Positions 9,337 to 35,444 of a stretch of 36,783 bases of DNA are shown here, one piece after another. The notes beneath the pieces were generated by a model, which saw only the letters and a list, made by a program, of their open reading frames with translations, made no database searches and was not told the origin of the DNA. Numbering within the stretch: the stretch's first letter is position 1; the number at the start of each line of letters is the position of its first letter. The stretch comes from Mucilaginibacter sp. Lineage in GTDB: Bacteria > Bacteroidota > Bacteroidia > Sphingobacteriales > Sphingobacteriaceae. Where the stretch lies: the NCBI GenBank assembly GCA_028288085.1, contig JAQBOK010000097.1, positions 1-36,783 of the forward strand, read 5' to 3'. Both the position numbers and the translations under genes were made by a program.

Positions 9337-10128
9337 TCAAAAATCCTTATTCAGCAATTTTTCCAGCTCAGCAAAACTGATATTCATTTTAACGCGGCCT
9401 TGTTTGGCGTAGGATATCTCACCCGTTTCTTCTGAAACGATAATCGCAGTGGCTTCGTTACTTTCAGTAACGCCGATGCCTGCCCGGTGGCGTAAACCAA
9501 ATTGCAGTGGCAGGTCGGTTTTATCAGTAAGGGGCAATATACAGCTTGCCGCTTTTATCTTATTTTCAGATATCACCACGGCGCCGTCATGCAACGGACT
9601 GCTTTTTTGAAATATGCTTTCGAGTAAACGTTTGGATATTTTCGCGTCTATTACCTCGCAGCTATTCTGGTAAAATTGCTCATCATAAAACTTGGCAAAT
9701 ACAATAAGCGCCCCGGTGCGGGTTTGTTTCATGCTTTTGCAGGCATCTACAATGGGCTTAATGCGGGCATAATTGTTTTTTTCATCTTCAACCTTGCCAA
9801 AAAAGTAACGCCACCACGCTTTATTGCGCTGCAGCGATGCATTTTTACCTACCAACAATAAAAAGCGCCTTATCTCTTGCTGAAACACTACTATCACCGC
9901 TATGATGCCTACATCAGCTACTTTTTTGAGTATACCCGCCAGCAATGGCATTTTTGATTCGGGAACAATATAATAGAGCAGGTAGATGAGTATAAGCCCG
10001 AAAAAAATATTGGCCGCTATAGTGCCTTTTATAAGGTTGTATAACTGGTATATGATAAAAGCCAGCAGTAAAACATCCAGCACATCAAAAACAGTAATCT
10101 TAAGGTGGCTAAAATCAAATGATTGCAT
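9337..10128 (-). CDS. cdaA: Membrane diadenylate cyclase (c-di-AMP synthase, DisA_N domain)
   Basis: N-terminal transmembrane helices, then SPLHDGAVVI (DGA motif) and FGLRHRAGIGVTE (RHR motif). Confidence 0.95.
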   Translation of the reverse strand: MQSFDFSHLKITVFDVLDVLLLAFIIYQLYNLIKGTIAANIFFGLILIYLLYYIVPESKMPLLAGILKKVADVGIIAVIVVFQQEIRRFLLLVGKNASLQRNKAWWRYFFGKVEDEKNNYARIKPIVDACKSMKQTRTGALIVFAKFYDEQFYQNSCEVIDAKISKRLLESIFQKSSPLHDGAVVISENKIKAASCILPLTDKTDLPLQFGLRHRAGIGVTESNEATAIIVSEETGEISYAKQGRVKMNISFAELEKLLNKDF

Positions 10129-16712: not shown

Positions 16713-17732
16713 TTAGATTTTTTTAGTGGACCCTCTTAATATTAATTCTGGCTGTATAATCAATTTACTAAGATCTTTTAAGCGGACTTTATTTTCGAGT
16801 TTATCCAAAAGTGTTTTAAATAACTGTTTCGCCATTTCGTCTAATGGCTGCGCAATAGCGGTGATTGATGGATTATAAATATTAAAAACATCATGGTCAT
16901 CAAAAGCTATAATAGAAATGTCGTTAGGTATATTAAGCCCTAATTCATTTATTGCTTTTATCCCACTTAGTGAGAGGTAGTTGGTAGCGAATATGATAGC
17001 GTCTATTCCCGGGTTATCCTTAATGAATTGAACACATTGTTTAACAGTTGTTTCTGTATCATTTTCAAATGCTACCTTCAAAATTAATGGTTTAAGCTGA
17101 TGCTTCTTTAAAGCAGCTAAATAACCTGAATGTCTTTCAATCATTTGGGTCTGATCGGATGCTAATGTAACGAGTGCAATTTTTTTTGCGCGTGTTTCTA
17201 CTAAATATTCTACGCCATCATAGGTGCCTTTAAAATTATCGAGACCTACGTAATCAGTAGAAATATCTGGTAAATACCGGTCAAATAGCACTACCGGTAA
17301 ATTGTCATTTATCAATGCCTTAATTTCAGATTCAATACCAACCGGGGGCGTAATAATATAGCCGTCTACATAGCGTGCCCGTAACAAACTAATTAATTGC
17401 CTCGTTTTCTCGGGATCGTTTTCTGTACTGCAATAAATTATCTTATATCCATTTTTATAGGCAAGGGCCTCTAAATGAAAAGCAATGTGTGAAAAGAAAT
17501 AATCAGATATCTTTTCAACCATCAGACATATCATCTTTGTTTTACCGGTGCTCAGGCTTTTTGCGAGCTGGTTTGGCTGAAATCCCTTTTCTTTAACAAA
17601 CTTCAAAACCCTCTCAGTTAGTTCGTCACTTATTCTTTTCTCTTTCGCCTTCCCGTTCAAAATAAACGAAACAGTAGATTTTGCAACATGCAATTCGTTT
17701 GCGATATCATTAATAGATAGTTTTTTACTCAT
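16713..17732 (-). CDS. LacI family transcriptional regulator
   Basis: HTH MSKKLSINDIANELHVAKSTVSFILNGKAKEKRISDELTERVLKFVKEKGFQPNQLAKSLSTGKT followed by a periplasmic-binding-protein-like sensor domain. Confidence 0.96.
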   Translation of the reverse strand: MSKKLSINDIANELHVAKSTVSFILNGKAKEKRISDELTERVLKFVKEKGFQPNQLAKSLSTGKTKMICLMVEKISDYFFSHIAFHLEALAYKNGYKIIYCSTENDPEKTRQLISLLRARYVDGYIITPPVGIESEIKALINDNLPVVLFDRYLPDISTDYVGLDNFKGTYDGVEYLVETRAKKIALVTLASDQTQMIERHSGYLAALKKHQLKPLILKVAFENDTETTVKQCVQFIKDNPGIDAIIFATNYLSLSGIKAINELGLNIPNDISIIAFDDHDVFNIYNPSITAIAQPLDEMAKQLFKTLLDKLENKVRLKDLSKLIIQPELILRGSTKKI

Positions 17733-17936
17733 TAAATGCTTTTCAATATTATATAACCAGGTAAGTATAGCTTCTTTTAAAAATAAAGTTAAACGTATTT
17801 TAATAATTACATAATCTGTTTATCGGCTGTTAACAATTAGCTGTCGCTTTGTATGGTTGAATTAGGGTGAAATATCCTGAAAAAACGACCATCACCTTCT
17901 TTCAAATTGATCGTCTTTTCAAAAATAGTGTTTTCT

Positions 17937-17969
17937 ATTTGCAAAACCGGTTTTATTAATTATTATTGC
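17937..17969 (+). promoter_or_regulatory. Promoter with embedded LacI-type operator upstream of ROK-MFS
   Basis: ATTTGCAAAACCGGTTTTATTAATTATTATTGC: TTG (17939-17941), 19 nt, TATTATTG (17961-17968), close to the Bacteroidetes TTG/TAnnTTTG consensus. Perfect palindrome AAAACCGGTTTT at 17943-17954 lies in the spacer. Confidence 0.75.
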
Positions 17970-18336
17970 AACTCGATAAGACAATAAATCTTCCGGGCCT
18001 TGTTCAGGCGCTGTGAAAATTTAGTTCCCGTAAACCAATTATTCAGCTTAAACAATAAATGAGAACTGTTTTTTTCAAATTAACCGCCAAACGGTGTATG
18101 TCCTCCGGCTATTATAACCATAATCATTTATCACTTTGAACAAATGAATTGGGTGCTGCACAGCATGCCCGATCACTATCCGCGGACACTCAGTTTTCTT
18201 TTAAAAAAGCCTGGTAACTGAATGCTGATGTTTAGCGCTTGCGTCTATTATGAAAGATTAAGGCAGGCTGATGTGTTTATAAAAGATGAAGGAGCGGGGA
18301 ATTTAATAAATCAATTAGAAGGCAAATAAAAAAACA

Positions 18337-19251
18337 ATGCAAATTAATAGCTTATCAACTCCATACATTTTAACTGCTGATATAGGCGGTTCGCATATTA
18401 CTGTAGGTATTTGCGATCTGAGAACCTATACCATATCTGAACAAAGCACCATCAGGATTGAAGTGGATAGCAAAGGTTCGGCAACGAGTATATTAATTTC
18501 ATGGACAAGCGCATTTGAAAAGATATTAAAGGAGACCGTTGCACTGCCGATTCCTGGTTTGGGAATTGCAATGCCTGGCCCATTTGACTACGAAAACGGC
18601 ATATCTTATATTAGAGGGCTTAATAAATATGAAGCATTATATGGCATGAATATTAAGCAATACTTTGCCGATCTGCTAAAGATTGACCCTCAATTAGTCA
18701 GGTTCAGAAACGATGCCGAATCGACAATAGCAGGTGAAGTATTGACAGGCGCGGGTAAAGGTCATCAGCGATTAATGGGTATTACACTGGGTACAGGCTT
18801 CGGATCTGCTTATAGCGAAAACAAAATCACCCGGGACATAAACCTGGGTAGCGAACCGTACAAGAAAAGCATAGCGGATGATTATTTTTCCACGCGCTGG
18901 TTTTTAAAGCGTTATCATGAATTAACTGGCATATCGTTAACTGGCGGTGTGAGGGAACTTTCTGAGTTGGCTACAAAAAGCACCGTCGCGCGGGATATAT
19001 TTAAAGAATTCGCAATTAATATGATTGATTTTCTTTCGGGACCAGTTAAGCAATATGGCCCTGAAGTTTTAATTATTTGCGGCAATATTGCTAAAGCATC
19101 CCAATTTTTTCTGCCATACCTCACCAACGAGTTAAATTCAATAACCATTAAGTTGGCTCAACTTGATGAAAACGCGCCGCTAATAGGAGCTGCAGCCATG
19201 TTTGATGACATGATGAGACTGGCGCCTTTTAATTCTGTAAACCAATTATAG
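18337..19251 (+). CDS. ROK family sugar kinase-like protein
   Basis: N-terminal ADIGGSHITVGICDL phosphate-binding motif; GIAMPGPFDYENGI; RNDAESTIAGEVLTGAGKGHQRLMGITLGTGFGSA. Confidence 0.9.
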   Translation: MQINSLSTPYILTADIGGSHITVGICDLRTYTISEQSTIRIEVDSKGSATSILISWTSAFEKILKETVALPIPGLGIAMPGPFDYENGISYIRGLNKYEALYGMNIKQYFADLLKIDPQLVRFRNDAESTIAGEVLTGAGKGHQRLMGITLGTGFGSAYSENKITRDINLGSEPYKKSIADDYFSTRWFLKRYHELTGISLTGGVRELSELATKSTVARDIFKEFAINMIDFLSGPVKQYGPEVLIICGNIAKASQFFLPYLTNELNSITIKLAQLDENAPLIGAAAMFDDMMRLAPFNSVNQL

Positions 19252-19262
19252 CTTAACATATC

Positions 19263-20492
19263 ATGCAAAAAGCAGCCTTTATCGAGAAGAAGTTTATTGT
19301 CAACTTTATTTTTGTAACCTCCTTGTTTTTAATGTGGGGAGTATTGCATTCCATGAGCGATGTGCTCAATAAGTACTTTCAGGGAGCATTAAATGTTTCA
19401 AAATCCCAGTCTGGACTTATTCAGCTATCAGTTTTCGGCGCTTACTTTGTTATGAGTATTCCAGCGGGCTACTTTCTAAAAAAGTTTGGTTATAAGCCAG
19501 GCGTGCTGTTGGGTTTGGCATTATTTGCCATCGGTACTTTTCTATTTGTACCTGCCGCAAATGCCGGGTCTTTCGGCTTTTTCAGGATCGCCTTATTTGT
19601 TATGGGCTGTGGAATGGCCACACTTGAAACAGTGGCACATCCGTTTGCAGCAGCCCTGGGCGACCAGAGAACCAGCGACCGCCGTATTAATTTTTCACAA
19701 TCATTTAACGCACTTGGAGCCACCGCCGGGCCATTGATCGCTTCCTGGTTTCTCCTTCGCGTAACTGCCGGAAGTTCAACAGACCTTACCTCTGTAAAAT
19801 ATCTGTACGTTAGTATTGGTGGTGTAATTACCTTGCTTATCGTGGCTTTTTTATTTCTTAAAGTACCGGTATTAAACGACCCGCATGTAGCTGTAGCCGA
19901 AATTGACCCGGAAGCGGTAAACGTAGCCGTGGCCCCCTCTAAAAAACTATACCAGCACAAACATTTTATATGGGCAGTTGTGGCCCAGTTTTTTAACGTG
20001 GCGGCACAAGCTGGCACATGGGCCTTTTTTATCAATTACGGACATGAGGTGATGGGCTTTAGCAACCTATCTGCTGGCAGATATATGAGTGTTTTTATGG
20101 CTATGATGATGCTCGGCCGCTTTACCGGAACTTATTTGATGAAGTTTATTGCGCCTAATAAATTACTTGCTTGCTTTGCGTTGGGCAGTGTTATTATGTG
20201 CCTGATAGTAGCGCAGGGCCTGGGATGGCCATCCTATATCGCTTTGATGATGATCAACTTTTTCTTCAGTATTATGTTTCCCACCATTTTTAGCCTGGGC
20301 TTAAAAAATCTGGGAAGCCACACCCAACAGGCATCCTCATTTATATCAATGGGGGTTGTTGGCGGGGCCTTTTTCCCACTGTTAATGGGACTGATAGCTA
20401 ATCATGATGTTGCCAAAGCATATTATTTGCCAATCATATGTTACGCTGTTATATTTTTATTCGGTTATAAATTATATAAGGTAAAATATTAA
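19263..20492 (+). CDS. MFS sugar transporter, FucP/GluP-like (FHS family)
   Basis: 12-TM pattern; FLMWGVLHSMSDVLNKYFQ and RRINFSQSFNALGATAGP motifs of the FHS sugar permeases. Confidence 0.92.
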   Translation: MQKAAFIEKKFIVNFIFVTSLFLMWGVLHSMSDVLNKYFQGALNVSKSQSGLIQLSVFGAYFVMSIPAGYFLKKFGYKPGVLLGLALFAIGTFLFVPAANAGSFGFFRIALFVMGCGMATLETVAHPFAAALGDQRTSDRRINFSQSFNALGATAGPLIASWFLLRVTAGSSTDLTSVKYLYVSIGGVITLLIVAFLFLKVPVLNDPHVAVAEIDPEAVNVAVAPSKKLYQHKHFIWAVVAQFFNVAAQAGTWAFFINYGHEVMGFSNLSAGRYMSVFMAMMMLGRFTGTYLMKFIAPNKLLACFALGSVIMCLIVAQGLGWPSYIALMMINFFFSIMFPTIFSLGLKNLGSHTQQASSFISMGVVGGAFFPLLMGLIANHDVAKAYYLPIICYAVIFLFGYKLYKVKY

Positions 20493-20568
20493 ACACAAAC
20501 CGTTCAACTTGCTGTTTACTTACTAACCATCCTAACGTATTTATACCTAAAAAACTTTTTTTAAATTA

Positions 20569-20628
20569 ATTTGCAAAACCGGTTTTATTGATTATTATTG
20601 CTAATAATTCATAAAACCGGTTTTGCAA
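20569..20628 (+). promoter_or_regulatory. Promoter with embedded operator plus a second inverted operator upstream of GH130
   Basis: ATTTGCAAAACCGGTTTTATTGATTATTATTGC (20569-20601) is the 17937 module with one mismatch. The arms TTGCAAAACCGGTTTTAT (20571-20588) and ATAAAACCGGTTTTGCAA (20611-20628) are perfect reverse complements. Confidence 0.8.
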
Positions 20629-20674: not shown

Positions 20675-21838
20675 ATGAAGAGGGGACTCATTAAACTAAC
20701 TGGGGCTTTAGCCTGCCTTTTATTTTTCAATTTTTCAATTGCTCAAACAAAAGGGCAAAATATTCTTCCCAAATGGGCTTTTGGGGGATTTGTAAGGGCG
20801 CAAAATGTTAACCCTATCATTTCGCCGGATTCAACCGCGAAGTTTTTAGACCCTATGTCTAATAAACTGGTAGGATGGGAAGCGGATTATACATTTAACC
20901 CTGCCGCAACTGTTAAAGCTAGCAAAATAGTAGTCCTTTACAGATCTGAAGACAAAACCGGTGTTGAAATTGGAACCCGCACCTCACGAATAGGCTATGC
21001 CGAAAGTAATGACGGACTTGCTTTCAAAAGGAATACCAAGCCAGTGCTGTTTCCTGCAAATGATACCCAAAAAGAATTTGAATGGCCAGGTGGATGCGAA
21101 GACCCACGGGTTGCGGTAACAGAAAATGGAACTTATGTGATGTTTTATACCCAATGGAACCGTAAAGTTCCGCGTTTGGGTGTAGCTACTTCAAAGGACC
21201 TTATCACCTGGGTAAAGCACGGCCCTATTTTTAGAAAGGCCTTTAATGGGAAGTTTTTCAATATCCCGCATAAATCTGCTTCCATATTAACAAAATTAGA
21301 GGGCGACAAACAAGTTATTGCCAGGATAAAAGGGAAATATTGGATGTATTGGGGCGAATTGCACGTATTTGCAGCCACCTCTACAAACCTGGTAGACTGG
21401 AGCCCAGTGGTAGATGATAAAGGCGAACTAAAACAGTTAATATCACCCCGTAAAAACTACTTCGACAGCGACCTTACAGAGTGCGGGCCGCCTGCTATAA
21501 TAACTAATAAAGGGATCATCTTATTTTATAACGGGAAAAATCATCCCGGCAATGGCGGCGATAAACGTTTTAACGGTAATTCATACTGCGCCGGGCAAGT
21601 TTTATTCTCGCTTAATGATCCTACTAAAGCAATTGGACGGTTAGATGTCCCTTTTCTTCGTCCGATGGCGTCTTTTGAGAAAAGCGGACAATATGTAAAC
21701 GGAACTGTTTTTATTGAAGGATTGGTTTATTTTAAACAAAAATGGTTCCTCTATTATGGCTGTGCAGACTCGAGGGTTGGAGTAGCTGTTTTTGATCCGC
21801 ATACACCTGCACCGCCAGACCCAATACCACTTCTATAA
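20675..21838 (+). CDS. Secreted glycoside hydrolase family 130-like enzyme (beta-mannoside hydrolase or phosphorylase)
   Basis: Signal peptide MKRGLIKLTGALACLLFFNFSIAQ; WPGGCEDPRVAV, ECGPPAIITNKGIILFYNG and WFLYYGCADSRVGVA motifs typical of GH130 five-bladed propellers. Confidence 0.85.
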   Translation: MKRGLIKLTGALACLLFFNFSIAQTKGQNILPKWAFGGFVRAQNVNPIISPDSTAKFLDPMSNKLVGWEADYTFNPAATVKASKIVVLYRSEDKTGVEIGTRTSRIGYAESNDGLAFKRNTKPVLFPANDTQKEFEWPGGCEDPRVAVTENGTYVMFYTQWNRKVPRLGVATSKDLITWVKHGPIFRKAFNGKFFNIPHKSASILTKLEGDKQVIARIKGKYWMYWGELHVFAATSTNLVDWSPVVDDKGELKQLISPRKNYFDSDLTECGPPAIITNKGIILFYNGKNHPGNGGDKRFNGNSYCAGQVLFSLNDPTKAIGRLDVPFLRPMASFEKSGQYVNGTVFIEGLVYFKQKWFLYYGCADSRVGVAVFDPHTPAPPDPIPLL

Positions 21839-22125
21839 GCTTAACCTAATTGATTAAATGTAGTTTTTTTAAATAATCCATTGTTGATTAATGGGTTACC
21901 GGGGATTTTTTGGCCTTAAAATCAGAAGAATAAGGTCCTCTATTTTTATCAAATGCCTCGTTTTATCAAAAGTTAAATAGTTATTCCTCCAAGACTATCC
22001 TAAATAAACAATAATCAAAACCAATTAAACTAAGAGAAGAAAGGACAAATTATATGAAATAGTCTACTAAAAATAGCTTTCTAAGCTAATGGATTGCGAA
22101 AGCATTTCTTATTGGCTAAAGTTGA

Positions 22126-22186: not shown

Positions 22187-25100
22187 ATGAAAAAAACTTA
22201 CAGTTATTTCATTATCAGTCGATATGAAAAAGGAACTCCTTTAAGCGCGAAATTTGCTTTTGCTTTGCTTCTGGCAGCATTAGTTCAATTAACCGCGTAC
22301 GGAGCTCCTGCAAATGGACACAACCTGTTGCAGAGCAGCAAAGGCCTGTCCCTAAATATTCTTCCTTCAAAATTATCAGCAACAAAAGCTGACTTAAGTG
22401 ATATAAAAGTAACAGGGAAGATCTCAGACGCCAGTGGCGAAACCCTTATTGGTGCTACTATTGGTATTAAAAATGGCAAAAACCTGGCCGTTACCGATTT
22501 GAACGGTAATTTTAGTGTAACAGTGCCTGACAATGCTATACTTACTATCTCTTATATCGGTTATCAGACCCAAGAGGTTGCGGTAGCAGGCAGAACACAA
22601 ATTGACATCATACTAAAGGAGACCTCCGGCAATTTAAATGAGATTGTGGTTGTAGGTTATACTACTCAAAGAAAGAAAGATCTTACAGGTGCGGTTTCGT
22701 TAGTTAGCAGTAAGGATATCAATGGCTTGCCAGTGGGTGGTGTTGACCAAATATTACAGGGTAAGGCTGCGGGCGTAGCTGTTACACAGAACACAGGCGC
22801 TCCGGGCGATGGAATAAATATCCGTATTCGTGGTGTAGGTACCATAAATAATAATGATCCGCTTTATATAGTAGATGGCGTGCCAACACAAACTGGTATT
22901 AATGAGATATCGCCTAATGATATCGAAAGTATCAATATCCTAAAAGATGCTGCATCAGCTTCTATTTATGGGGCAAGAGCATCAAACGGGGTGGTTATAG
23001 TAACTACCAAAAGAGGAAGTTCGGGCAAAGCCAAACTAAGCGTTAGCGCTTATACCGGCGTGCAAACCGCTCAGCATTTAATTAAAATGGCTGATAACGC
23101 TCAATATGTGAGCGCGTTTAATACTGCAGCCAAAAATGATAGCAGGTCAATGATCTCCGATAGCCTTGCCAGAACACTATCTGACGTAAATTGGTTGAAA
23201 CAGATCCTTAAGCCGGCTCCTGTAAGCAATGCTTCTTTATCCATCAGCGGTAGCAATGAAAATTCACAATACATTATTGCGGCTAATTATTTCACCCAGG
23301 ATGGATTGATCAAAAATTCTTCTTTCAATAGGTTTAACTTGCGTACCGCAATAAGCAGTACTATATCAAAGTATCTTAAATTGGGTACTAATGTTAATCT
23401 TAGTTATTCAAAAACCAGGATAGTAGGTACGTCTGGTGATGGCTACAGCGGGGCCGAGGCCAGCATTGTGCGCTATGCATTATTCCGCACACCGGGAACA
23501 CCGGTTTATAACGCTAACGGGCAATTTGTAGATCTGCCAAAACAGGACAAGAGCGTAAATGGCAATTTTTTAGGCGATGGCGTAAACCCGGTTGCACTGG
23601 CAGATGCAAGCAATGATAACAATTATAATTATTCCATATTGGGCGATGCCTACGCAGAACTGGATCCAATTAAGGGTCTAAAAATAAAATCGGATATTGG
23701 TTTAAACCTGATACAAACCGATTACAAGCAATTTTTTGAGACTTTCGGGATCGATCGCTCCTTTAACTCTCCCAATTCGCTTGCCCAATCACACAACAAT
23801 AATTTAAATTATAACTGGACCAATACCGCTACTTACGATCTTACACTTGGAAAAAATGTGTTAAACTTTTTAGCAGGTTCAGAACTTATTAAGCAGGATC
23901 AACAAGGGATCTCGGCATCACGAACAACGTTTATTAATCAACAACCCAATTTTCAATACCTTGACAATGGATCATTAGCCAAGGTTCAAAATGGAGGCGG
24001 GGAGTCACATATGGCTTTATCATCCTTATTTGGCAGTATACATTATCAATACAATAATAAATACCTTGCCAGTGTGAGCTATCGCAGGGATGGATCTTCT
24101 CAGTTAGATCCCTCAAATCAATACCAGAGCTTTACCTCCGGGTCATTAGGATGGAGGATTGACCAGGAAGATTTCATGAAGGATATTAAACCCATTTCTA
24201 CCCTTAAGCTACGCGCAAGTGTTGGTCAGTTGGGAAATTCACAAATAGGTACTTATCCCTATACCTCAACTTTTAGCAGTGGTTTTTATTATCCTTTTGG
24301 AGGCGTAACAAACCAAGGGTATAGTATAACAACTAAAGGTAACCCCAATATACGCTGGGAATCAAGCACGCAGGAAGATGCAGGCTTAGATATTGGGTTT
24401 CTTGACAACGCTTTATTGTTAAGTGCCGATTACTATATCAAAAAAACATCAAATATGCTCTTGTTCCTGCCTTTACCAAGCAGTGCTGGTAACGGCGGTA
24501 ATCCTGCGGTAAACGCCGGCAATGTAACCAACAGCGGTCTTGAGCTTGAATTAACCTATAAAAAAGCGCTAAGTACCAACTGGAGCTATAGTGTGAGTGG
24601 CAATTTCGCTACTGTTAATAATAAGGTAACCTCTCTTGCAGGCGGCACGCCTATACCAGACGGACGTATTGATAATAACTATTTTGCTACCAAAACAGAC
24701 GTGGGCCACCCTATTGGTTCGTTTTACCTGTTACAGCAGGAAGGTATTTTTCAAAATGCGCAGCAGGTATTTACCCATGCCTACCAGGGACCAGGCATCA
24801 GGCCGGGTGACGTAATGTATAAAGACGTGAATGGTGACGGCGTTATTGATGATAAGGACAAAACTTTTGTAGGTAGTCCGATACCTAAATTCACTTATGG
24901 ATTAACCGCAGATGTGGCTTATAAGAACTTTGATCTGAATGTGTTTTTCCAGGGTGTTTATGGTAATAAAATATACAACCAGGTGCTTACGGATATTGAA
25001 GGCTTTTATCGTCCTTTTAATATTACAGAACGCATTGCCACTCAAAGCTGGACTGGTCCTGGATCAACTAATACTTTCCCACTTTTATCATGGACGGATG

Positions 25101-25396
25101 GAAGCAACAACAAGATGCCATCTACCCGTTTTCTGGAAAGCGGATCGTATTTAAAACTTAAAAATGTGCAACTCGGATACAAACTTGGTAAAGATGCTTT
25201 AACAAGCCTTGGCATATCGTCTGTACGCGTATATGTAAGCGGTCAAAATCTTTTAACCTTTACCAAATACACCGGCCTTGATCCTGAACAGTACAATAAC
25301 AGTAACAATGGCAATGCCGTAACAGCTGTTGGTATTGACTGGGGAACTTATCCATCAGCACGTACCATAACAGTTGGTGTTAACGCTAATTTCTAA
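22187..25396 (+). CDS. SusC/RagA-type TonB-dependent outer-membrane receptor
   Basis: Carboxypeptidase-like domain (VTGKISDASGETLIGATIGIKNG), NEIVVVGYTTQRKKDLTGAVS, plug DPLYIVDGVP...INILKDAASASIYGARASNGVVIVTTKRG. Confidence 0.97.
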   Translation: MKKTYSYFIISRYEKGTPLSAKFAFALLLAALVQLTAYGAPANGHNLLQSSKGLSLNILPSKLSATKADLSDIKVTGKISDASGETLIGATIGIKNGKNLAVTDLNGNFSVTVPDNAILTISYIGYQTQEVAVAGRTQIDIILKETSGNLNEIVVVGYTTQRKKDLTGAVSLVSSKDINGLPVGGVDQILQGKAAGVAVTQNTGAPGDGINIRIRGVGTINNNDPLYIVDGVPTQTGINEISPNDIESINILKDAASASIYGARASNGVVIVTTKRGSSGKAKLSVSAYTGVQTAQHLIKMADNAQYVSAFNTAAKNDSRSMISDSLARTLSDVNWLKQILKPAPVSNASLSISGSNENSQYIIAANYFTQDGLIKNSSFNRFNLRTAISSTISKYLKLGTNVNLSYSKTRIVGTSGDGYSGAEASIVRYALFRTPGTPVYNANGQFVDLPKQDKSVNGNFLGDGVNPVALADASNDNNYNYSILGDAYAELDPIKGLKIKSDIGLNLIQTDYKQFFETFGIDRSFNSPNSLAQSHNNNLNYNWTNTATYDLTLGKNVLNFLAGSELIKQDQQGISASRTTFINQQPNFQYLDNGSLAKVQNGGGESHMALSSLFGSIHYQYNNKYLASVSYRRDGSSQLDPSNQYQSFTSGSLGWRIDQEDFMKDIKPISTLKLRASVGQLGNSQIGTYPYTSTFSSGFYYPFGGVTNQGYSITTKGNPNIRWESSTQEDAGLDIGFLDNALLLSADYYIKKTSNMLLFLPLPSSAGNGGNPAVNAGNVTNSGLELELTYKKALSTNWSYSVSGNFATVNNKVTSLAGGTPIPDGRIDNNYFATKTDVGHPIGSFYLLQQEGIFQNAQQVFTHAYQGPGIRPGDVMYKDVNGDGVIDDKDKTFVGSPIPKFTYGLTADVAYKNFDLNVFFQGVYGNKIYNQVLTDIEGFYRPFNITERIATQSWTGPGSTNTFPLLSWTDGSNNKMPSTRFLESGSYLKLKNVQLGYKLGKDALTSLGISSVRVYVSGQNLLTFTKYTGLDPEQYNNSNNGNAVTAVGIDWGTYPSARTITVGVNANF

Positions 25397-25414: not shown

Positions 25415-26920
25415 ATGAAAGCAAAATATATATACATCTATTTAAGTGCATCCTTGCTATTGATAGCAAGCGGGTGCAAAAAGTTCCTTGAACAGCCGGT
25501 TCTGGCCCAGTACCAGGGTGATAATTTTTTCACTAATGATGCCAACGCAGTGCTGGGGGTAAACGCGGCCTATACGCCCCTTACCTTTACAGACGCCTCC
25601 TCAAATACAATATGGGTTTTAGGCGATTTAGCCTCCGACGACGCGATAAAAGGAAGCAGCGACGGCGATCAGAGTGATTTTTTGAGCATTCAAAACTTCA
25701 ATATCAATCCAGCTAACGCAGCAGTTGAGGGCCTTTGGAAGAGATACTATGATGGTATTTTTAAATGTAATGTAGTTACTGATGGGTTACCCGCAAGTAA
25801 TAAGACTGTTTCTGACGCGGTTAAAAATGATGTGGTTGGACAAGCGGAGTTTTTGCGTGCCTACTACTATTTTAATTTAACCGTAGCTTATGGCGATATA
25901 CCATTGCATTTAAAAGTGGAAACACCCCAGGAACTGCAAAGCCCTGCTTTGCCGCAGGTGCAAATTTATGCACAGATAGAAAAGGATTGCACAGCAGCTA
26001 TTGCTACCTTACCAACAACCCGAACCGGCAATGATATAGGTCGTGCTACTAAGGGCGCTGCTTTGGCACTTTTGGCTAAAACCTATTTGTTTGAACAAAA
26101 ATGGGCACTCGCAGCCTCAACCGCACAAGCTGTTGACGCGTTGGGCGTTTACAGTTTATTACCTTCTTTTGCCGATAACTTTAGGGCAGCTACTAAAAAT
26201 AATGCTGAAGGGGTGTTTTCCGTCCTGCATACTTCGGGTTTGGTCCCTTTCCAGGGGAATAATTTAAATGCCTGGTTCGCGCCGCGTTCCCTAAATGGCT
26301 ATGGCTTTTATTTGCCAACACAAAGCCTTGTTGATAATTTTGAAACCGCACCGGATGGCACTGTTGACCCGCGCCTGGATTATACAGTTGGCAGGGCAGG
26401 ACAGCCTTACTTCGATAGCCCATTTGATCCCAGCTGGACAAGTACCGGTTATGTAAGTAAAAAACATACCCAACCTATTTCAGAAATCCCCATCAATATC
26501 AGGGGCGATGGTAATTTAAATTACCAGGCCATCAGGTTTGCTGAAGTTTTATTGATCGAAGCAGAAGCTTTAAACGAATCAGGAAATGGTAGCGGAGCCC
26601 TGGTGCCGCTTAACAAGGTTAGAAAACGTGCTCGTGAAAGCTATTTGAATGATGCTTCGCTGCCAGGATTTGGTACCGTACCCGCAGGTTTGTTGCCTGA
26701 TATTACAATTACCGATCAGTCTCAGCTTCGCGACATTATTCGCAAGGAAAGACGCTCTGAATTGGCCCTTGAATTCCATCGCTTTTTTGACATTATACGT
26801 TATGGATCAGCTTACGCCAATAGTGCGCTAAAAAATAAACCTAACTTTAGTTTTGCAACAAATCAGTTTTTCCCAATACCGGAAAGTGAAAGAGAAACTA
26901 ATTTTAAATTAGGTAAGTAA
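25415..26920 (+). CDS. SusD/RagB-type outer-membrane lipoprotein
   Basis: Lipobox IASGCKKFLEQP; AEFLRAYYYFNLTVAYGDIPL; IRKERRSELALEFHRFFDIIRYG. Confidence 0.97.
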   Translation: MKAKYIYIYLSASLLLIASGCKKFLEQPVLAQYQGDNFFTNDANAVLGVNAAYTPLTFTDASSNTIWVLGDLASDDAIKGSSDGDQSDFLSIQNFNINPANAAVEGLWKRYYDGIFKCNVVTDGLPASNKTVSDAVKNDVVGQAEFLRAYYYFNLTVAYGDIPLHLKVETPQELQSPALPQVQIYAQIEKDCTAAIATLPTTRTGNDIGRATKGAALALLAKTYLFEQKWALAASTAQAVDALGVYSLLPSFADNFRAATKNNAEGVFSVLHTSGLVPFQGNNLNAWFAPRSLNGYGFYLPTQSLVDNFETAPDGTVDPRLDYTVGRAGQPYFDSPFDPSWTSTGYVSKKHTQPISEIPINIRGDGNLNYQAIRFAEVLLIEAEALNESGNGSGALVPLNKVRKRARESYLNDASLPGFGTVPAGLLPDITITDQSQLRDIIRKERRSELALEFHRFFDIIRYGSAYANSALKNKPNFSFATNQFFPIPESERETNFKLGK

Positions 26921-26944: not shown

Positions 26945-28000
26945 ATGAGAAAGATCAAAAATTCTATTGCAACGATCATTATATTGATCGTTGCGATAAC
27001 CTTAATGCAATCGTGCAAAAAAAATAGCGACAAGGTTGATTACACTTCCGATAAATCAAAACTTAGCTCAGAAATCGATTCATTAACAACTGTTTACAGC
27101 GCAGCTGTTGAGGGGAAACAAGCAGGGGACTACTCACCGGGAGCAAAGGAGGCACTTCAAACAGCTCTTACTTTGGCCGCAAGCGTTAAAACCGGCTCGT
27201 TTACTCAACAACAGGTTAACAACGCATCGGCAAACCTAATCCGTGCCGGCGTACAATTTAGTGTCAATTTGGTACAACAAATTTCGGCCGCGAACCTGGT
27301 TGCTTCATGGACTTTTAATGGAAACGCAAAAGACGTATCCGGCAACGGTAACGATGGCACATTAAAAACAGGCTGGGTAGGCCCTTATGGAGTTGCCCCT
27401 GTTGATGGTGCTACTTTACCGGTTTTGGTTGCTGACCGTTATGGGGTTGCCAATAGTGCCTACGATTTTAACAATGGCGCTTATATTGAAGTGCCTTATC
27501 AGCCGACGTTGCGCCCCAGCAGTTTTACTATCTGCGCCTGGATCAAACCACATGCAGCAAGTAATGGAAATTATATCTTTTCATTAGACCGCTGGAATGG
27601 ATGGAAATTTCAATTACAGGGAGGCAACTTACCTTTCCTTACCGTGATGACCAGCACGGGTGACCATGATCAGGATGATGGTGGGCCATCTGTTCAATTG
27701 GAGAAATGGACACAGGTTGTAGCGAGTTTTACAAACGGCACTGAGAAATTTTACATTAACGGCGCTCTGAAAAAAACTGCTAATGTAACCGGAGATCCTA
27801 CAACTTTAGTTTCGCCACCACCCATAGCTATCGGTAACGAACTACCTAAGTCGGCTTATACTTTAGCGGATCCAAATGGCCCTAACGCATACTATGGTGG
27901 CAATTTCTTTATAGGATCCATTGACGACATTCACCTTTACAATAAGGTTTTAAGCGACAATGAAGTTAAATCGTTATATACCATGGAAGATCCAAACTAA
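26945..28000 (+). CDS. LamG (concanavalin A-like) domain lipoprotein, probable surface glycan-binding protein
   Basis: Lipobox LMQSCKKNSDK; FIVAR-like helical segment; LVASWTFNGNAKDVSGNGNDGTLK...FTICAWIKPHA...GSIDDIHLYNKVLSDNEVKSLY. Confidence 0.88.
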   Translation: MRKIKNSIATIIILIVAITLMQSCKKNSDKVDYTSDKSKLSSEIDSLTTVYSAAVEGKQAGDYSPGAKEALQTALTLAASVKTGSFTQQQVNNASANLIRAGVQFSVNLVQQISAANLVASWTFNGNAKDVSGNGNDGTLKTGWVGPYGVAPVDGATLPVLVADRYGVANSAYDFNNGAYIEVPYQPTLRPSSFTICAWIKPHAASNGNYIFSLDRWNGWKFQLQGGNLPFLTVMTSTGDHDQDDGGPSVQLEKWTQVVASFTNGTEKFYINGALKKTANVTGDPTTLVSPPPIAIGNELPKSAYTLADPNGPNAYYGGNFFIGSIDDIHLYNKVLSDNEVKSLYTMEDPN

Positions 28001-28184: not shown

Positions 28185-28967
28185 TTATATTTCTTTGATG
28201 TCAGCCTCGTGTATCCAGCCTTCATTACCGTTAGCCAGTTGAACTTTTATCCAGCCATTGTTATTATCCAGAATATTTACTTTGGTGCCATCATGCAATA
28301 CAAATAACGTAGCTGCCTGCTCGCCTGGCCCACTTCTTACATTGACAGAACCGGTGAAAATAATGGCCTGGTGATGATCATTAAAATAATGCACCTGCCT
28401 GTTTGATATAAAAACAAATAACAATCCTGAAAAAAGCATAAGTATGCCTATATAGAAAGATGCTTTTTTAAGAGAACTAACATTGGTAAAAAGATAAAGC
28501 ACAAGTAACCCAAACCCTGCTATAAAAGATAGAACGCTTAATATGGAAAGTGTACCTATAGAAAAGAACAGGATAATGCTGCGCCACCACTGGCTAACAA
28601 AAAACTCCGGCTCGGGCTCTACCTTATCGGTAGTTTTTGAATTGGCGAAGTAAATGTTAAAGTTAATATCCTCATCGCCGGGTGCAAGTTTGTGGGCTTT
28701 TTCATAGTATAGCAATGCTGAAGGTATATCTCCCAGCTTGAAATAAGCATTGCCCAAATTAAAATAAACCGCTTCTGCCGGGCGGCCACCGTCTAATATT
28801 TGCTGGTATGATTTTATTGCCTCCTGGTATTGGGCTTTTCTATACTGTTCGTTCGCTTTTTTGTAAAGTGTGTTATAATCACTACTCCATGAAAACAAAG
28901 GAAAAGAAAGCAGCAAAAGCAGGCATATTCCGTGCCTGGTGAGGTTATAACTTGTCTTCAATTTCAT
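28185..28967 (-). CDS. batE: BatE: TPR plus SH3-like domain membrane protein
   Basis: Signal peptide MKLKTSYNLTRHGICLLLLLSFPLFSWS; TPR repeats; two TM helices; C-terminal SH3 (GSVNVRSGPGEQAATLFVLHDGTKV). Last gene of the Bat operon; start at 28967 preferred over 29042. Confidence 0.88.
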   Translation of the reverse strand: MKLKTSYNLTRHGICLLLLLSFPLFSWSSDYNTLYKKANEQYRKAQYQEAIKSYQQILDGGRPAEAVYFNLGNAYFKLGDIPSALLYYEKAHKLAPGDEDINFNIYFANSKTTDKVEPEPEFFVSQWWRSIILFFSIGTLSILSVLSFIAGFGLLVLYLFTNVSSLKKASFYIGILMLFSGLLFVFISNRQVHYFNDHHQAIIFTGSVNVRSGPGEQAATLFVLHDGTKVNILDNNNGWIKVQLANGNEGWIHEADIKEI

Positions 28968-30753
28968 TGATGATATTTTTTGCATTTTCAAATACTTGCT
29001 GTTGCGATATGGCTGATACCGGCGCGAACCTTGCCATTTCACAACTATCTAATGTATCATTCAGTTGCTGGATAACGGGATCTCCAACAGACCTCGCCTT
29101 TAGGCTGTCTGCAATATTTTCTTTATTAAGATCCGCAAAAGGAATGTCCAGTTTGTCGCTCAAATAACCATATAAACCTTTGGCGATCGCGTCGAAAAAA
29201 GCCACTTTATTACCTGCGGCGAGTTCTTTATTAGCAGCAGCCAAATGCTTGGCAGCAATTTTGCCGGCTTTCCGGCTTTTTACTAAAACCAGGTCGCTGT
29301 TATACCGTGTTTTCCATCTGCGGTAAAAGAAGGCAGCTACAAATGATAAAGGCCCCAACAGCATTAGCATATAGTAGAGGGCAGAATTGTAAAATTCCCC
29401 GCTACCCTTATATAAATCAGCGGGTGATGTTTTTATATAGCGGATATCATTACCCAGCATTTTTATATCCTGCTGGTCGGCAGAATTGAAAACGGGAACA
29501 TTTACCTGCATGTCGCCTTTATTTACTTTAATATTAAAAGCATTTGCAGGCAGTGTTATGTATCTTTTTGCAGCAGGATCAAAGTAAGTAAATTTGGCGG
29601 GGTCAAGCTTATAATTACCCTGGTGACGAGGGATCAGCAGGTAGCTAAACAGCCGGCTACCTGAAATGCCATTTGAATCAACTGTAATACGATCCGTGGT
29701 CTTAGGGTCGTATTTTTCAAAATCAACCGGAGGGGTAATCTTTGGTGCGTTTATCAAATTGAGGTTGCCTGAACCTTTAACTTCAAAAGTATAATTAATA
29801 GTTTCGTTAGCTTTTAACTCTTTTTTGTCTACATCTGTATAAACAGAGAAAGAGCCAACCGCGCCGCTAAAATCAGCTGGTTTACCTGCAAGCGGCAGAG
29901 GAGCGGCATGGATGATAACAGGCAAGCTTTTTACCTGGTACTTAACATCCTGAAAATTGCCATAAGGATTGACCAAAAATTTCCTTGCCGGCAGTTGCAT
30001 TCGTACCACAAATGTCATTGCCAAAGGATCGATCGTAAGATCTCCCGAATGTTGAGGGAAAAGAATAGTTTGTTTAATAGTGGCTACAGTATATCTTGCC
30101 CCATTGTAGGTTTCGGTGGTCCAAGCCGCGTTTGGATTTTTGCTGACAACATCCTGGCTCCAAAAACCATTAAGATCGGGCGCCTTATCCAGCTGATTGG
30201 CTATAAGATCTACACGGGTATATAATTTATAGCGCACCGTGATCTGCTCACCGGTGTAAACCCGGGTTTTACTAACATTAGCTTTAATAAATAATGATTT
30301 GGACAAATCCTTTGTATTTACTGAAGTATTATCATCAGGGGGCGCCGCGGCCTGCTGCTGCGGCTTTTGCTGGGGAGGAGCTTGTCCCTGTACCTTTATT
30401 TTTATTGAATTTGATGTTAAGGTGTGCCCGTTAACTACTATTGCCGCAGCCGTAATGGTAAATGTGCCCTCTTTTGTTGCAGACAGGATATAGCCGTAGC
30501 TTGTACTAATAGAGGAACTCCCGTTTATGATAGTGGCGCTTGTAGACTCATTTGGGCCTGCTAATATCTGAAACGCGCTAAAATCAGGCGGCGTAAACCG
30601 GTTTCCAACACCGTTTAATGTGAAATCTATCTCAAATTGTTCGCCCACCCCTACCTGGTTCTTACTTACCGAAGCGACGAGTTTAATATCGCTGGCAAAC
30701 AGGAGCGTTGTCCATAACAGTAAAAATGATAATATATAAAGTCTTTTTTTCAT
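28945..30753 (-). CDS. batD: BatD (oxygen tolerance/aerotolerance protein)
   Basis: 602 aa; signal peptide, VSKNQVGVGEQFEIDFTLNG...FTPPDFSAFQILAGPNESTS, characteristic of BatD; operon position. Confidence 0.92.
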   Translation of the reverse strand: MKKRLYILSFLLLWTTLLFASDIKLVASVSKNQVGVGEQFEIDFTLNGVGNRFTPPDFSAFQILAGPNESTSATIINGSSSISTSYGYILSATKEGTFTITAAAIVVNGHTLTSNSIKIKVQGQAPPQQKPQQQAAAPPDDNTSVNTKDLSKSLFIKANVSKTRVYTGEQITVRYKLYTRVDLIANQLDKAPDLNGFWSQDVVSKNPNAAWTTETYNGARYTVATIKQTILFPQHSGDLTIDPLAMTFVVRMQLPARKFLVNPYGNFQDVKYQVKSLPVIIHAAPLPLAGKPADFSGAVGSFSVYTDVDKKELKANETINYTFEVKGSGNLNLINAPKITPPVDFEKYDPKTTDRITVDSNGISGSRLFSYLLIPRHQGNYKLDPAKFTYFDPAAKRYITLPANAFNIKVNKGDMQVNVPVFNSADQQDIKMLGNDIRYIKTSPADLYKGSGEFYNSALYYMLMLLGPLSFVAAFFYRRWKTRYNSDLVLVKSRKAGKIAAKHLAAANKELAAGNKVAFFDAIAKGLYGYLSDKLDIPFADLNKENIADSLKARSVGDPVIQQLNDTLDSCEMARFAPVSAISQQQVFENAKNIINEIEDKL

Positions 30754-30766
30754 TTAAATAATAAGG

Positions 30767-31540
30767 TTACCAGTCTTTATTGATATGTACTTTCTCGCCT
30801 TGTAGTTTTCTATTTTTTAATTTATCCTGGGTATTTTTTTCCTGGTCATTCAATGCGTCAAGCATCCGTTGTGCATCATCTTTTGATACTTTATTAGGTG
30901 GTTGCTGCTGGCTTTGCTGATTCTTTTTATCCTGATCGCTCTTATCCTTATCCTGGTTATTTTTATCCTGATCGCTCTTATTCTTATCCTGATTGTTCTT
31001 ATTCTGATTGTTTTTATCCTTATCCTGGCCCTGCTTATTTTTGTCCTGGTTCTGCTTATTTTTATTCTGGTCGTTTTTATTTTTATTCTGATTGTCCTTG
31101 TTTTGCGGTTTTTGCTTTTTCAGCATTTCCTGTGCATAGGCCAGGTTATATCGTGTTTCATCGTCTTGTGGGTTATTTAGCAAGGCCTTTTTATAAGCAT
31201 CGATACTTTCATCATATTTTTTGTTGGTCAATAGGGAATTACCCAAATTATGATAAGCCCCGGCTTTTACCAATGGATTGGTTGATGATGAAGCAATGGT
31301 TTCAAAGTTCTTCTGAGCACTATCAAACTTTTTTTCTTTATATAAGGCGTCTCCCAGGTTAAAATTACTTTCCACCTTTTGATCTTTTTTAGCTGCAGCC
31401 TTTCGGTAAGCCGCCTCTGCTTCTGTATATTTTTTTTGATGATACAGCTTATTTCCCTGGTGAATATAACTCTTTGCATCCTGCGCAAAAAGCACCGGGG
31501 AATTTAATACCATCAACAGGATTATAATTAATTGCTTCAT
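30767..31540 (-). CDS. batC: BatC: TPR protein with low-complexity N/K/D/Q tail
   Basis: TPR repeats (GNKLYHQKKYTEAEAAYRKAA, NLGNSLLTNKKYDESIDAYKKALLNNPQDDETRYNLAYA) then a QNKDNQNKNK... segment. Confidence 0.9.
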   Translation of the reverse strand: MKQLIIILLMVLNSPVLFAQDAKSYIHQGNKLYHQKKYTEAEAAYRKAAAKKDQKVESNFNLGDALYKEKKFDSAQKNFETIASSSTNPLVKAGAYHNLGNSLLTNKKYDESIDAYKKALLNNPQDDETRYNLAYAQEMLKKQKPQNKDNQNKNKNDQNKNKQNQDKNKQGQDKDKNNQNKNNQDKNKSDQDKNNQDKDKSDQDKKNQQSQQQPPNKVSKDDAQRMLDALNDQEKNTQDKLKNRKLQGEKVHINKDW

Positions 31541-32577
31541 GGTGTTTTTACTTCAAACAATTTCAACCTGCTTAACCTTTGACTTTTACGGCCGGAGATA
31601 AAAAACTCTGCAACCAGCAACAGGAAGGCTATTGCCAAAAAAAACTGGAAACGGTCTTCAAACTCCTTAAACTGTTTACTGGTATAAGTTTTTTGCTTCA
31701 TTTTATTAACCTGGTCCATCACTATACCCATGCCGCTATTAGCATTGGTGGCCCTTATGTAAACTCCGTGTCCCGCTGTGGCAATTTCTTTACACATATT
31801 TTCATCCAGCTTGCTGATAACATTATGCCCCACGCTATCGGTATGAAAGCCTGCTGGTTTGCCATTTTCATATATAGGCACAGGGGCGCCCTGCGGAGAG
31901 CCAAATCCGATAACATGTATCATTACATTCTTGTCATGTGCACTTTCTGCCGCCTTAACCGCGTCATCCTCATGATTTTCGCCATCCGTCATCAGTATCA
32001 TAACCTTACTGGTGCCATCATTAAAATCAAACGATTTCATGCCCATATCAATGGCGGAGCCTATAGCAGTGCCCTGAACAGGCACTATACCTGTATTGAT
32101 AGTGTTCAGAAATAATTTGGCAGCGGAATAATCAGTAGTTGCAGGCAATTGTACATAAGCTTTACCAGCAAAAACAATGATACCGATGCGATTGTCCTGT
32201 AAATTAGAGATCAATTGATCTATGGCAAGCTTAGCATTTTCCAAACGGTTAGGGGCAAAATCCTGTGAAAGCATACTGTTGGATACATCAAGCAAGATCA
32301 TCAGATCAGCACCCCTGCTTTTGGTATCCTCTGTTTTAGTGCCTATTTGCGGATCAGCCAAACCAATAATAAGGCAAGCATAGGCAGTTATAAAAAAGAT
32401 GAATTTCACCACCGGCCTTGAAAAGGATACTTCGGGTATGATGCGCCGGATAACTTCCTTATCGCCAAAAGCAGCAAGAGCCTTTCTTTTCCACCTTCTC
32501 ACCATCAAAAATAAAATGATAAGCAGCGGAACAAACGCCAGGCCCCATAAAAACTCTGTATGTGCAAAACGTAACAT
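31537..32577 (-). CDS. batB: BatB: von Willebrand factor A domain membrane protein
   Basis: MIDAS motif LMILLDVSNSMLSQDFAPNRLENAK; ILMTDGENHEDDA; flanking TM helices. Confidence 0.93.
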   Translation of the reverse strand: MLRFAHTEFLWGLAFVPLLIILFLMVRRWKRKALAAFGDKEVIRRIIPEVSFSRPVVKFIFFITAYACLIIGLADPQIGTKTEDTKSRGADLMILLDVSNSMLSQDFAPNRLENAKLAIDQLISNLQDNRIGIIVFAGKAYVQLPATTDYSAAKLFLNTINTGIVPVQGTAIGSAIDMGMKSFDFNDGTSKVMILMTDGENHEDDAVKAAESAHDKNVMIHVIGFGSPQGAPVPIYENGKPAGFHTDSVGHNVISKLDENMCKEIATAGHGVYIRATNANSGMGIVMDQVNKMKQKTYTSKQFKEFEDRFQFFLAIAFLLLVAEFFISGRKSQRLSRLKLFEVKTP

Positions 32578-33584
32578 TAGGTTAAAGCTCCTTTAAAAAT
32601 TGTGTTATTCAATAAAATCTCCAGCGATAAAATAGCCAGGGCAATAACGGCAAATGGTAAATAATGTTCTGTTCTTTTATGATACTGTGTAACCGCTATT
32701 TTAACTTTTTCAAGTTTATCTATCTGCTGGTATATTTCTGACAGCTCAATATTGTTCCTGGCCCTGAAATATTTACCGCCTGTTATACTGGCTATTTTTC
32801 CAAGTGTTCCCTCGTCTATCTCAACAGGTATCATCTGGTAGTGTGTATTACCGAACTGATCTTTGAAAGGATAAGGAGCCGAGCCATTAGTTCCCACACC
32901 AACGGTATAAACCCTTACACCAAATTGTTTTGCTATCTCAGCAGCAGTTATCGGCGGGATGGAGCCCATATTATTCACCCCATCGGTCAATAAAATAATA
33001 ACCTTGCTTTTTGCTTCGCTGTCTTTTAGTCTGCTCACCGCAGTGGCCAATCCCATTCCTATGGCTGTTCCGTCATCAATCATCCCGTTCTTAATATCAT
33101 GGAATAAATTGATCAGCACATCATGATCGATAGTTAATGGGCACTGGGTAAAACTTTCACCGCTAAAAACCACTAAACCAATACGGTCTCCCGGGCGGTT
33201 CTTAATAAAATTAACCGCAATATTTTTGCCAGCCTCAAGCCGGTTCGGCTTAAAATCTTCTGATAACATACTGCCCGAAATATCAGTAGCTATCATTATA
33301 TCAATACCTTCAGTCGTTTCGTTCTGCCAGCTTAAGGCAGATTGCGGCCTTGCCAGTGCGGCCACCAAAGCAATAAATGCAAGTGACCTTAGCACAATAC
33401 CATAATGCCGCCAAATTCGCATGGGGCTTTTCAGCGCGGATGCAAAACCTTTTGTGGATGACATGCCCAATACGCCCTGCAATTGCTGGTTACGCCAATA
33501 ATAATAAGCTATCATTAGCGGGATAACAAGCAGCAGCCAGAAAAATCCAGGCTGGGCAAATTCTATTCCTTTAAACCAGTTCAT
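32577..33584 (-). CDS. batA: BatA: von Willebrand factor A domain membrane protein
   Basis: IDIMIATDISGSMLSEDFKPNRLEAGK; VIILLTDGVNNMG; TM helices. Confidence 0.94.
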   Translation of the reverse strand: MNWFKGIEFAQPGFFWLLLVIPLMIAYYYWRNQQLQGVLGMSSTKGFASALKSPMRIWRHYGIVLRSLAFIALVAALARPQSALSWQNETTEGIDIMIATDISGSMLSEDFKPNRLEAGKNIAVNFIKNRPGDRIGLVVFSGESFTQCPLTIDHDVLINLFHDIKNGMIDDGTAIGMGLATAVSRLKDSEAKSKVIILLTDGVNNMGSIPPITAAEIAKQFGVRVYTVGVGTNGSAPYPFKDQFGNTHYQMIPVEIDEGTLGKIASITGGKYFRARNNIELSEIYQQIDKLEKVKIAVTQYHKRTEHYLPFAVIALAILSLEILLNNTIFKGALT

Positions 33585-34564
33585 TCGGGCAACTCCTCTT
33601 TATGGCCAACGGGTTGCAGTTCTTCCTTTGTTTGCCTGATAAAATTAATTGCATCTTCCATAATTTGCTCGTTTTCAGCAGGCGATGGTTTTTCCCTTGC
33701 GAATTTCACCAGATCGGCAAGCGTTAATAGTTGCTTCAGGCTGTTTCTTCCACTGGCAGGCATATCCTTGTTTTTCAATCCCTCAAATATCTCTCCCGTT
33801 GTTTGCTCATGCGTTTTTATGCGATATCTCATCTCCAGGTACTCCCGCAGTATATCAGTAAGTTCAATATAATATGGCTTTATCTCGTTTTGCTGCCATA
33901 GCTTTTTATTCCGTAACTCGTAAAGCTTGTTTAGGGCAATGGTATCCGCAGGCAAAGCAGGGGCAGCTTTTTCAATAATCACTTCTTTTGGCCTGTTTTT
34001 CAGGTAATAAATGATTGCGATTACCAATAAGATAGATACTAAAATTATCGTCACCAAAATCCAATGATCTTTTAACCAATCCCAAAAAGTATAGGATACT
34101 ACAAACGGTTGTTTAATGTCATAGAATGCTTTAGTAGTATCAACCAGAACTGGTTTGACCTGCAGCGATACCGCACCCGTTTTAAAAACGTCTGCTTTGG
34201 TATGGAAGTCGAGCTCAGGGATCACATAAACCCCTGTATCAAAAGAAGTAATAGTATAACTATGCGTTATGGTTTCGGTAGCAGGATCATTCTTGTCAAA
34301 TGCTGTATCCGGCTTAGGGCCGTTCACAATCTTAATTTTGCCAATGCTGTCCTTTAATTGAGGAAAGGAAATAATACTTTTAGCCGGGATATGCGCAGTA
34401 ACATGCAGCACGGTTTGACCGCCGATAGGTATAGAGACCTTATCAAGCTTTGATCCCACCTGTACATTTTGCGCCCCGGCTCTGTAATAAAAGCAGACCA
34501 AAAACAGGATCAGCATCAAAATACCCCTGTAGTTGCCGGGATGAAAATTTCGTTTACTGCTCAC
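33581..34564 (-). CDS. Bat-operon membrane protein (DUF4381-like/BatD-related), 327 aa
   Basis: Signal peptide, extracytoplasmic beta-rich domain, single TM, cytoplasmic helical domain; conserved position between DUF58 and BatA. Confidence 0.75.
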   Translation of the reverse strand: MSSKRNFHPGNYRGILMLILFLVCFYYRAGAQNVQVGSKLDKVSIPIGGQTVLHVTAHIPAKSIISFPQLKDSIGKIKIVNGPKPDTAFDKNDPATETITHSYTITSFDTGVYVIPELDFHTKADVFKTGAVSLQVKPVLVDTTKAFYDIKQPFVVSYTFWDWLKDHWILVTIILVSILLVIAIIYYLKNRPKEVIIEKAAPALPADTIALNKLYELRNKKLWQQNEIKPYYIELTDILREYLEMRYRIKTHEQTTGEIFEGLKNKDMPASGRNSLKQLLTLADLVKFAREKPSPAENEQIMEDAINFIRQTKEELQPVGHKEELPE

Positions 34565-35442: not shown

Positions 35443-35444
35443 AC

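Follow-up and report, generated by a model that had tools for sequence, protein, structure and literature searches.

A predicted LacI-family regulon for beta-1,2-mannoside use in Mucilaginibacter, with operators set inside promoter spacers

Gene content and predicted pathway

The window, by which we mean the whole 36,783-nt stretch of Mucilaginibacter sp. DNA analysed (contig JAQBOK010000097.1), carries a small SusCD locus and a lacI-family gene on the opposite strand. Profile searches bore out the original prediction's gene calls for LacI, ROK, MFS, GH130, SusC and SusD.

16713-17732, minus strand: predicted lacI-family repressor gene, 339 aa (PF00356, 35.7 bits, cut-off 27; Peripla_BP_3, 89.7 bits)
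18337-19251, plus strand: ROK-family sugar kinase (PF00480, E 4e-12), a mannokinase by context
19263-20492, plus strand: FucP-type MFS hexose transporter (TIGR00885, 301 bits, cut-off 280)
20675-21838, plus strand: predicted GH130 beta-1,2-mannosidase with a signal peptide judged by eye (NF058598, 646 bits, cut-off 550)
22187-25396, plus strand: SusC-type TonB-dependent transporter (TIGR04056, 900 bits)
25415-26920, plus strand: SusD-type lipoprotein (PF07980, PF14322)
26945-28000, plus strand: LamG/concanavalin-like protein (PF13385, E 3.5e-24), syntenic in relatives

The lacI product combines an N-terminal LacI helix-turn-helix with a periplasmic-binding-protein-like sensor domain (PF00356 and PF13377, both above cut-off). 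A SusC/SusD pair adjoins a glycoside hydrolase, the arrangement of a polysaccharide utilization locus (PUL). The BT3780-type beta-1,2-mannosidases are recognized by Lys199, Glu227 and Glu268 together with a signal peptide (PMC4599007), and when the GH130 protein was aligned to 5a7v and 3qc2 its residues K200, E228, E269, D143, E142, N75 and R90 matched the diagnostic set of the BT3780 group. By these residues and by its score for NF058598, the profile of the BT3780 beta-1,2-mannosidase family, the enzyme is a BT3780-type beta-1,2-mannosidase, with activity predicted, and the LamG protein is a probable surface glycan-binding protein. Because GH130, SusCD, the LamG protein, a FucP-type transporter and a ROK kinase occur together, the simplest reading is that beta-1,2-mannosides (e.g. 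fungal mannan caps) would be taken up and hydrolysed to mannose, giving this small SusCD locus a probable role in the use of a fungal glycan. The GH130 and SusC genes are 348 nt apart, and their co-transcription from the GH130 promoter is an assumption. Farther along the window, the minus-strand BatD-like, TPR and VWA-domain (Bat-type) genes at 28945-36467 are apparently unrelated to the mannoside locus.

Three predicted operators at the locus

The original prediction described a 33-bp module duplicated with one mismatch, and we found ATTTGCAAAACCGGTTTTATT[A/G]ATTATTATTGC at both 17937-17969 and 20569-20601, differing at that single position. Each copy contains an 18-mer, TTGCAAAACCGGTTTTAT, which includes a 12-bp palindrome. 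A third, inverted copy of the 18-mer lies inside the coordinates that the prediction covered and was absent from its text.

17939-17956, plus strand: operator O1 (palindrome 17943-17954), exact 18-mer between the divergent promoters, invariant in 14/14 relatives
20571-20588, plus strand: operator O2 (palindrome 20575-20586), exact 18-mer in the GH130 promoter spacer, kept in 14 relatives
20611-20628, minus strand: operator O3 (palindrome 20613-20624), exact inverted 18-mer

O3 would fall just past the predicted GH130 start, at roughly +9 to +20, and O2 and O3 together form a 58-bp element in which 50 of the 58 positions match their own reverse complement. Matches to a 19-mer numbered three in the window, against 0.03 expected in shuffles, while the bare 12-mer with two mismatches allowed gave eight against 4.3 expected, which is not clearly significant; the extended site, not the bare 12-mer, is what matters. 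When the draft genome (5.07 Mb, 383 contigs, 97% complete) was scanned, the 18-mer had three exact matches, all at this locus, and every other match had three mismatches. Exact AAAACCGGTTTT sites numbered six, three of them O1-O3 and the other three within ORFs. The many unrelated genomic copies that would have spoken against a dedicated operator were thus not found, as far as a draft assembly can show. An even palindrome with CG at its centre is the usual form of a LacI-family operator, and local regulators make up nearly 90% of the family (PMC4052901); the site found here is likewise an even palindrome with a central CG, near its own regulator gene and the target operons.

Two predicted operators lie within conserved promoter elements

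Both 33-bp copies also hold the promoter elements that had been proposed, TTG followed by exactly 19 nt and TATTATTG. The palindrome was said to fill this spacer; it does sit within it, and covers 12 of the 19 bases rather than all of them.

17939-17968, plus strand: predicted ROK-MFS promoter, -33 TTG at 17939-17941 and -7 TATTATTG at 17961-17968
20571-20600, plus strand: predicted GH130 promoter, -33 TTG at 20571-20573 and -7 TATTATTG at 20593-20600
17920-17927, minus strand: predicted divergent lacI promoter, -7 TATTTTTG, conserved in 10/14 loci and adjoining O1

Bacteroidota sigma-A promoters are recognized by a -33 TTG and a -7 TAnnTTTG, the published -7 box lying at -12 to -5 (PMC9723704). 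The ROK and GH130 elements read TAnnATTG, one base off that consensus, with A at the fifth position in this lineage. Among relatives, TTG-N19/20-TAnnATTG was present in 28/28 promoters (14/14 ROK-MFS, 14/14 GH130); the nn bases vary (TATT, TATA, TATC, TAAT, TACT) and TA and ATTG are constant. When 14 loci were aligned for each side, the operator and -33 columns were invariant at 2.0 bits and the flanks fell to 0.5-0.8 bits. Such a pattern across the -33, operator and -7 would be expected of a functional promoter, and with the conserved TAnnATTG the consensus for promoters of this lineage can be refined. Applying the published -7 geometry (PMC9723704) places the predicted starts near 17973 and 20605. 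The ROK leader would then be ~364 nt, an unusual length that counts against the proposed mechanism. The leaders gave no Rfam match to a riboswitch or known RNA, and their sequence is unconserved across relatives. A scan for E. coli-type promoters performed no better than on shuffles, and a reverse-strand promoter at O3 was rejected because its candidate -7, TATTAGCA, does not fit.

The repeats could instead stem from recent duplication of a strong promoter, with a palindrome that plays no part in regulation, given that the two copies are nearly identical across 33 bp. This is barely credible, since the copies are still alike in species with diverged flanks, O3 has no matching -7 and is nevertheless kept in relatives, and operators in other genera occur without this promoter layout.

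The predicted divergent lacI promoter and the sign of regulation

On the minus strand, the lacI -7 element (17927-17920) sits 15 bp beyond the O1 palindrome. It is an exact TAnnTTTG, although the distance to its -33 is other than 19 nt. Relatives carry it as TAttTTTG, TAtaTTTG or TAcaTTTG in 10/14 loci. Loci with a missing or degenerate lacI -7 (L059, L060, L062 and L071) carry one more operator, 60-110 bp closer to lacI; L060, L062 and L071 are three of the four loci without an intact element. Because O1 adjoins a conserved divergent lacI promoter, LacI likely limits its own synthesis.

Relative to the lacI promoter, O1 would span roughly -28 to -39, a position where some regulators can activate, so the LacI-type protein might be an activator or have a dual role. 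We consider this highly improbable: a protein bound at O1 or O2, between -33 and -7, or at O3, past the start, would stand in the way of polymerase, and in Sphingobacterium the operator appears to be placed differently relative to the -7, which suits steric blocking over activation. At several loci in other genera the operator seemingly follows a -7-like sequence and is outside the spacer, a placement that also fits steric repression.

The operator tracks the lacI orthologue across the genus

We compared a sample of 105 Mucilaginibacter genomes, in which the loci differ enough for the flanks to be largely randomised. A 16-mer of the operator was present in 13/13 genomes whose lacI orthologue (at least 67% identical) is intact, in one further genome, G339, whose lacI is cut by a contig end (locus L071, fragment 92% identical), and in 1/91 other genomes, there inside an ORF. 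The lacI orthologues co-occurring with the operator are 67-93% identical. Fisher's test gave p of about 1e-14 with the contig-end case conservatively counted as lacking lacI, a value in which kinship inflates independence. A scan for relatives of the GH130 gene gave 80 loci, and those without this lacI, many of them with SusCD, had no operator.

Those Mucilaginibacter loci that run lacI(-)/ROK/MFS/GH130/SusC/SusD/LamG have a single operator in the lacI-ROK gap and a pair ahead of GH130. The pair is spaced 32-39 bp apart, mostly 38 bp, in 14/14 relatives retaining the promoter. This range spans most of a helical turn, and a cooperative, helically phased operator pair is not supported on that account. 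Comparison of orthologous loci showed that the operator follows the lacI orthologue and is present at both promoters in every complete locus except L050. The proposal that one LacI serves both transcription units is strongly supported by this co-occurrence, by the presence of sites at both promoters and by the way the operator follows the genes through rearrangement; binding itself is predicted.

The operators might be real and yet have a different regulator as their main ligand, such as a LacI paralogue encoded elsewhere, with the adjacent lacI controlling something else. The genome does encode at least one further LacI protein, 50% identical (C184:3107-4111), and LacI paralogues of the family use related half-sites. 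The C184 half-site, however, is GCTAAA and differs from the locus operator, many genomes that do not have the site nevertheless encode paralogues of ~50% identity, and within the genus the site is found almost exactly where this lacI orthologue is. We regard control by a paralogue as very unlikely and retain the adjacent lacI product as the predicted ligand of O1-O3.

Some individual loci depart from the common pattern. In L050 (~9950-10000) the GH130 promoter is without its -7 and second operator, the remainder being TTTGCAAAACCG, through either natural deletion or a MAG assembly error. In Mucilaginibacter sp. L196 (L058:99-110) a second GH130 gene has an operator-in-promoter copy, TTTGAAAAACCGGTTTTATT..TAGCATTG, and this second GH130 operon has apparently gained the regulon. 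All 14/14 operator-bearing loci also share a block, AGAAGAARGG...TATGARATARTYTACT, ~105-160 nt before SusC (window 22035-22070). Its reading frame RRKG..YEI(I/V)Y* is intact in only 9 of the 14, and four related loci that do not have this regulator (L067, L070, L073, L076) showed no such block ahead of SusC. The GH130-SusC gap also holds a hairpin-like CCATT...AATGG (window 21878-21894), in which pairing is seemingly kept in relatives.

Proposed mechanism and comparison with known systems

From the sequence, rarity and conservation of the sites, their co-occurrence with lacI and the gene content, we infer, with a probability of roughly 0.87, that this protein is a local LacI-family repressor of a beta-1,2-mannoside locus acting through O1-O3. 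The 339-aa protein would bind (GC)AAAACCGGTTTT at three places, with O1 and O2 inside the 19-nt spacers of the ROK-MFS and GH130(-SusC-SusD-LamG) promoters and the -33 TTG as the operator's outer edge. Without inducer, bound LacI is predicted to block RNA polymerase, and at O1 it would probably also restrain lacI. A mannose-related sugar, its identity deduced from the gene content, would release LacI and so permit uptake (SusCD, LamG), beta-1,2-mannoside hydrolysis (GH130), inner-membrane transport (FucP-type MFS) and phosphorylation (ROK). The predicted regulon is thereby fully specified, with a regulator, three operators, three promoters and a likely sugar, in a soil genus whose polysaccharide-locus regulation is little studied.

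The arrangement resembles the local LacI-family sugar regulons of RegPrecise (PMC4052901) in its CG-centred even palindrome, divergent regulator gene, local sugar-catabolic targets and more than one site per operon. That survey, in which Bacteroides formed a single taxonomic group, reported spacing peaks at 13, 22 and 32 bp, whereas the prevailing 38 bp here is seemingly set by promoter anatomy. An orthologous secreted GH130 (BT3780) together with SusC/SusD is also found in the yeast alpha-mannan PUL of B. thetaiotaomicron (PMC4599007). In that species the mannan loci are predicted to answer to hybrid two-component systems (HTCS_Man) or the GntR-family ManR (PMC3878776), in contrast to the predicted LacI-family regulator beside the small locus described here. 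As in E. coli lac, the predicted repressor has a promoter-overlapping palindrome and an auxiliary operator nearby, although the auxiliary site is adjacent here and in the coding region in lac. The 339-aa protein aligned to LacI chains only as far as LacI residue 298, ~60 residues before the LacI C-terminus, so tetramers or DNA looping are unsupported by alignment. The regulon is therefore of a familiar type and well supported, and the lineage-specific promoter layout is modestly novel.

Related operators in other genera and a composite cassette

The same operator, often as the symmetric TTGCAAAACCGGTTTTGCAA, adjoins lacI (36-45% identical) and precedes GH130 in the Pedobacter-type genome G188. 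It lies before SusC and after lacI in Sphingobacterium-type genomes, and elsewhere outside the genus it was found before a ROK kinase and before a GH130 gene downstream of a sugar-porter-type transporter. The operator thus appears to follow functions, not gene order, with one transporter type replacing another. An extra operator was also seen upstream of a ~445-aa secreted protein with no Pfam match in two related genomes, at L142 (G014) and L133 (G383), near 1501, making this protein a candidate regulon member; the G014 copy also fits the full composite promoter pattern described below.

Operators beside other LacI paralogues also fall between TTG and TAnnnTTG. We searched 151 Sphingobacteriaceae genomes with the pattern TTGCWAANNCGNNTTWN{6,7}TANNNTTG and obtained 34 matches, against one for a reversed-pattern control; this pattern was written after seeing these loci, and the family-wide search is exploratory. 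Changing the gap by +4 gave three matches and by -4 gave nine, several of which were one recurring variant. Among the cassette loci, 27/30 were intergenic, lying before ROK, FucP-type MFS, SusC, SusD, GH92, GH130, GH2 or GH20 genes, in many cases with lacI adjacent. Outside the family there were six matches against five for controls, which is background, and the cassette was rejected as a class-wide feature of Bacteroidia. We lean slightly towards the view that several diverged Sphingobacteriaceae LacI paralogues share a cassette, TTGC(A/T)AAnnCGnnTT(A/T)-N6/7-TAnnnTTG, in which the 19-20-nt spacer would house the operator, whose outer bases would also serve as the -33. If so, neither operator nor promoter could evolve separately from the other, and loci that release mannose (GH130, GH92, ROK kinase, FucP-type transporter) would come under control by acquiring the whole cassette. 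The composite pattern lets candidate LacI-controlled promoters be found from sequence alone across Sphingobacteriaceae.

We also considered a residue code relating LacI positions 17-18 to the half-site, with KST mostly accompanying GCAAAACCGG and other residues GCTAAA. It was rejected, as L076 and L172-L175 share KST yet are without such a site; the recognition helix does not predict the operator cleanly. The C184 paralogue itself belongs to a second mannose-type locus of the same genome (G000:C184:1-9000, L182), together with a FucP-type MFS, GH92 and GH2, and operator-like TTGCTAAA..CG..TTTTA sites occur ~19 kb away on that contig (22754 and 22873; L183).
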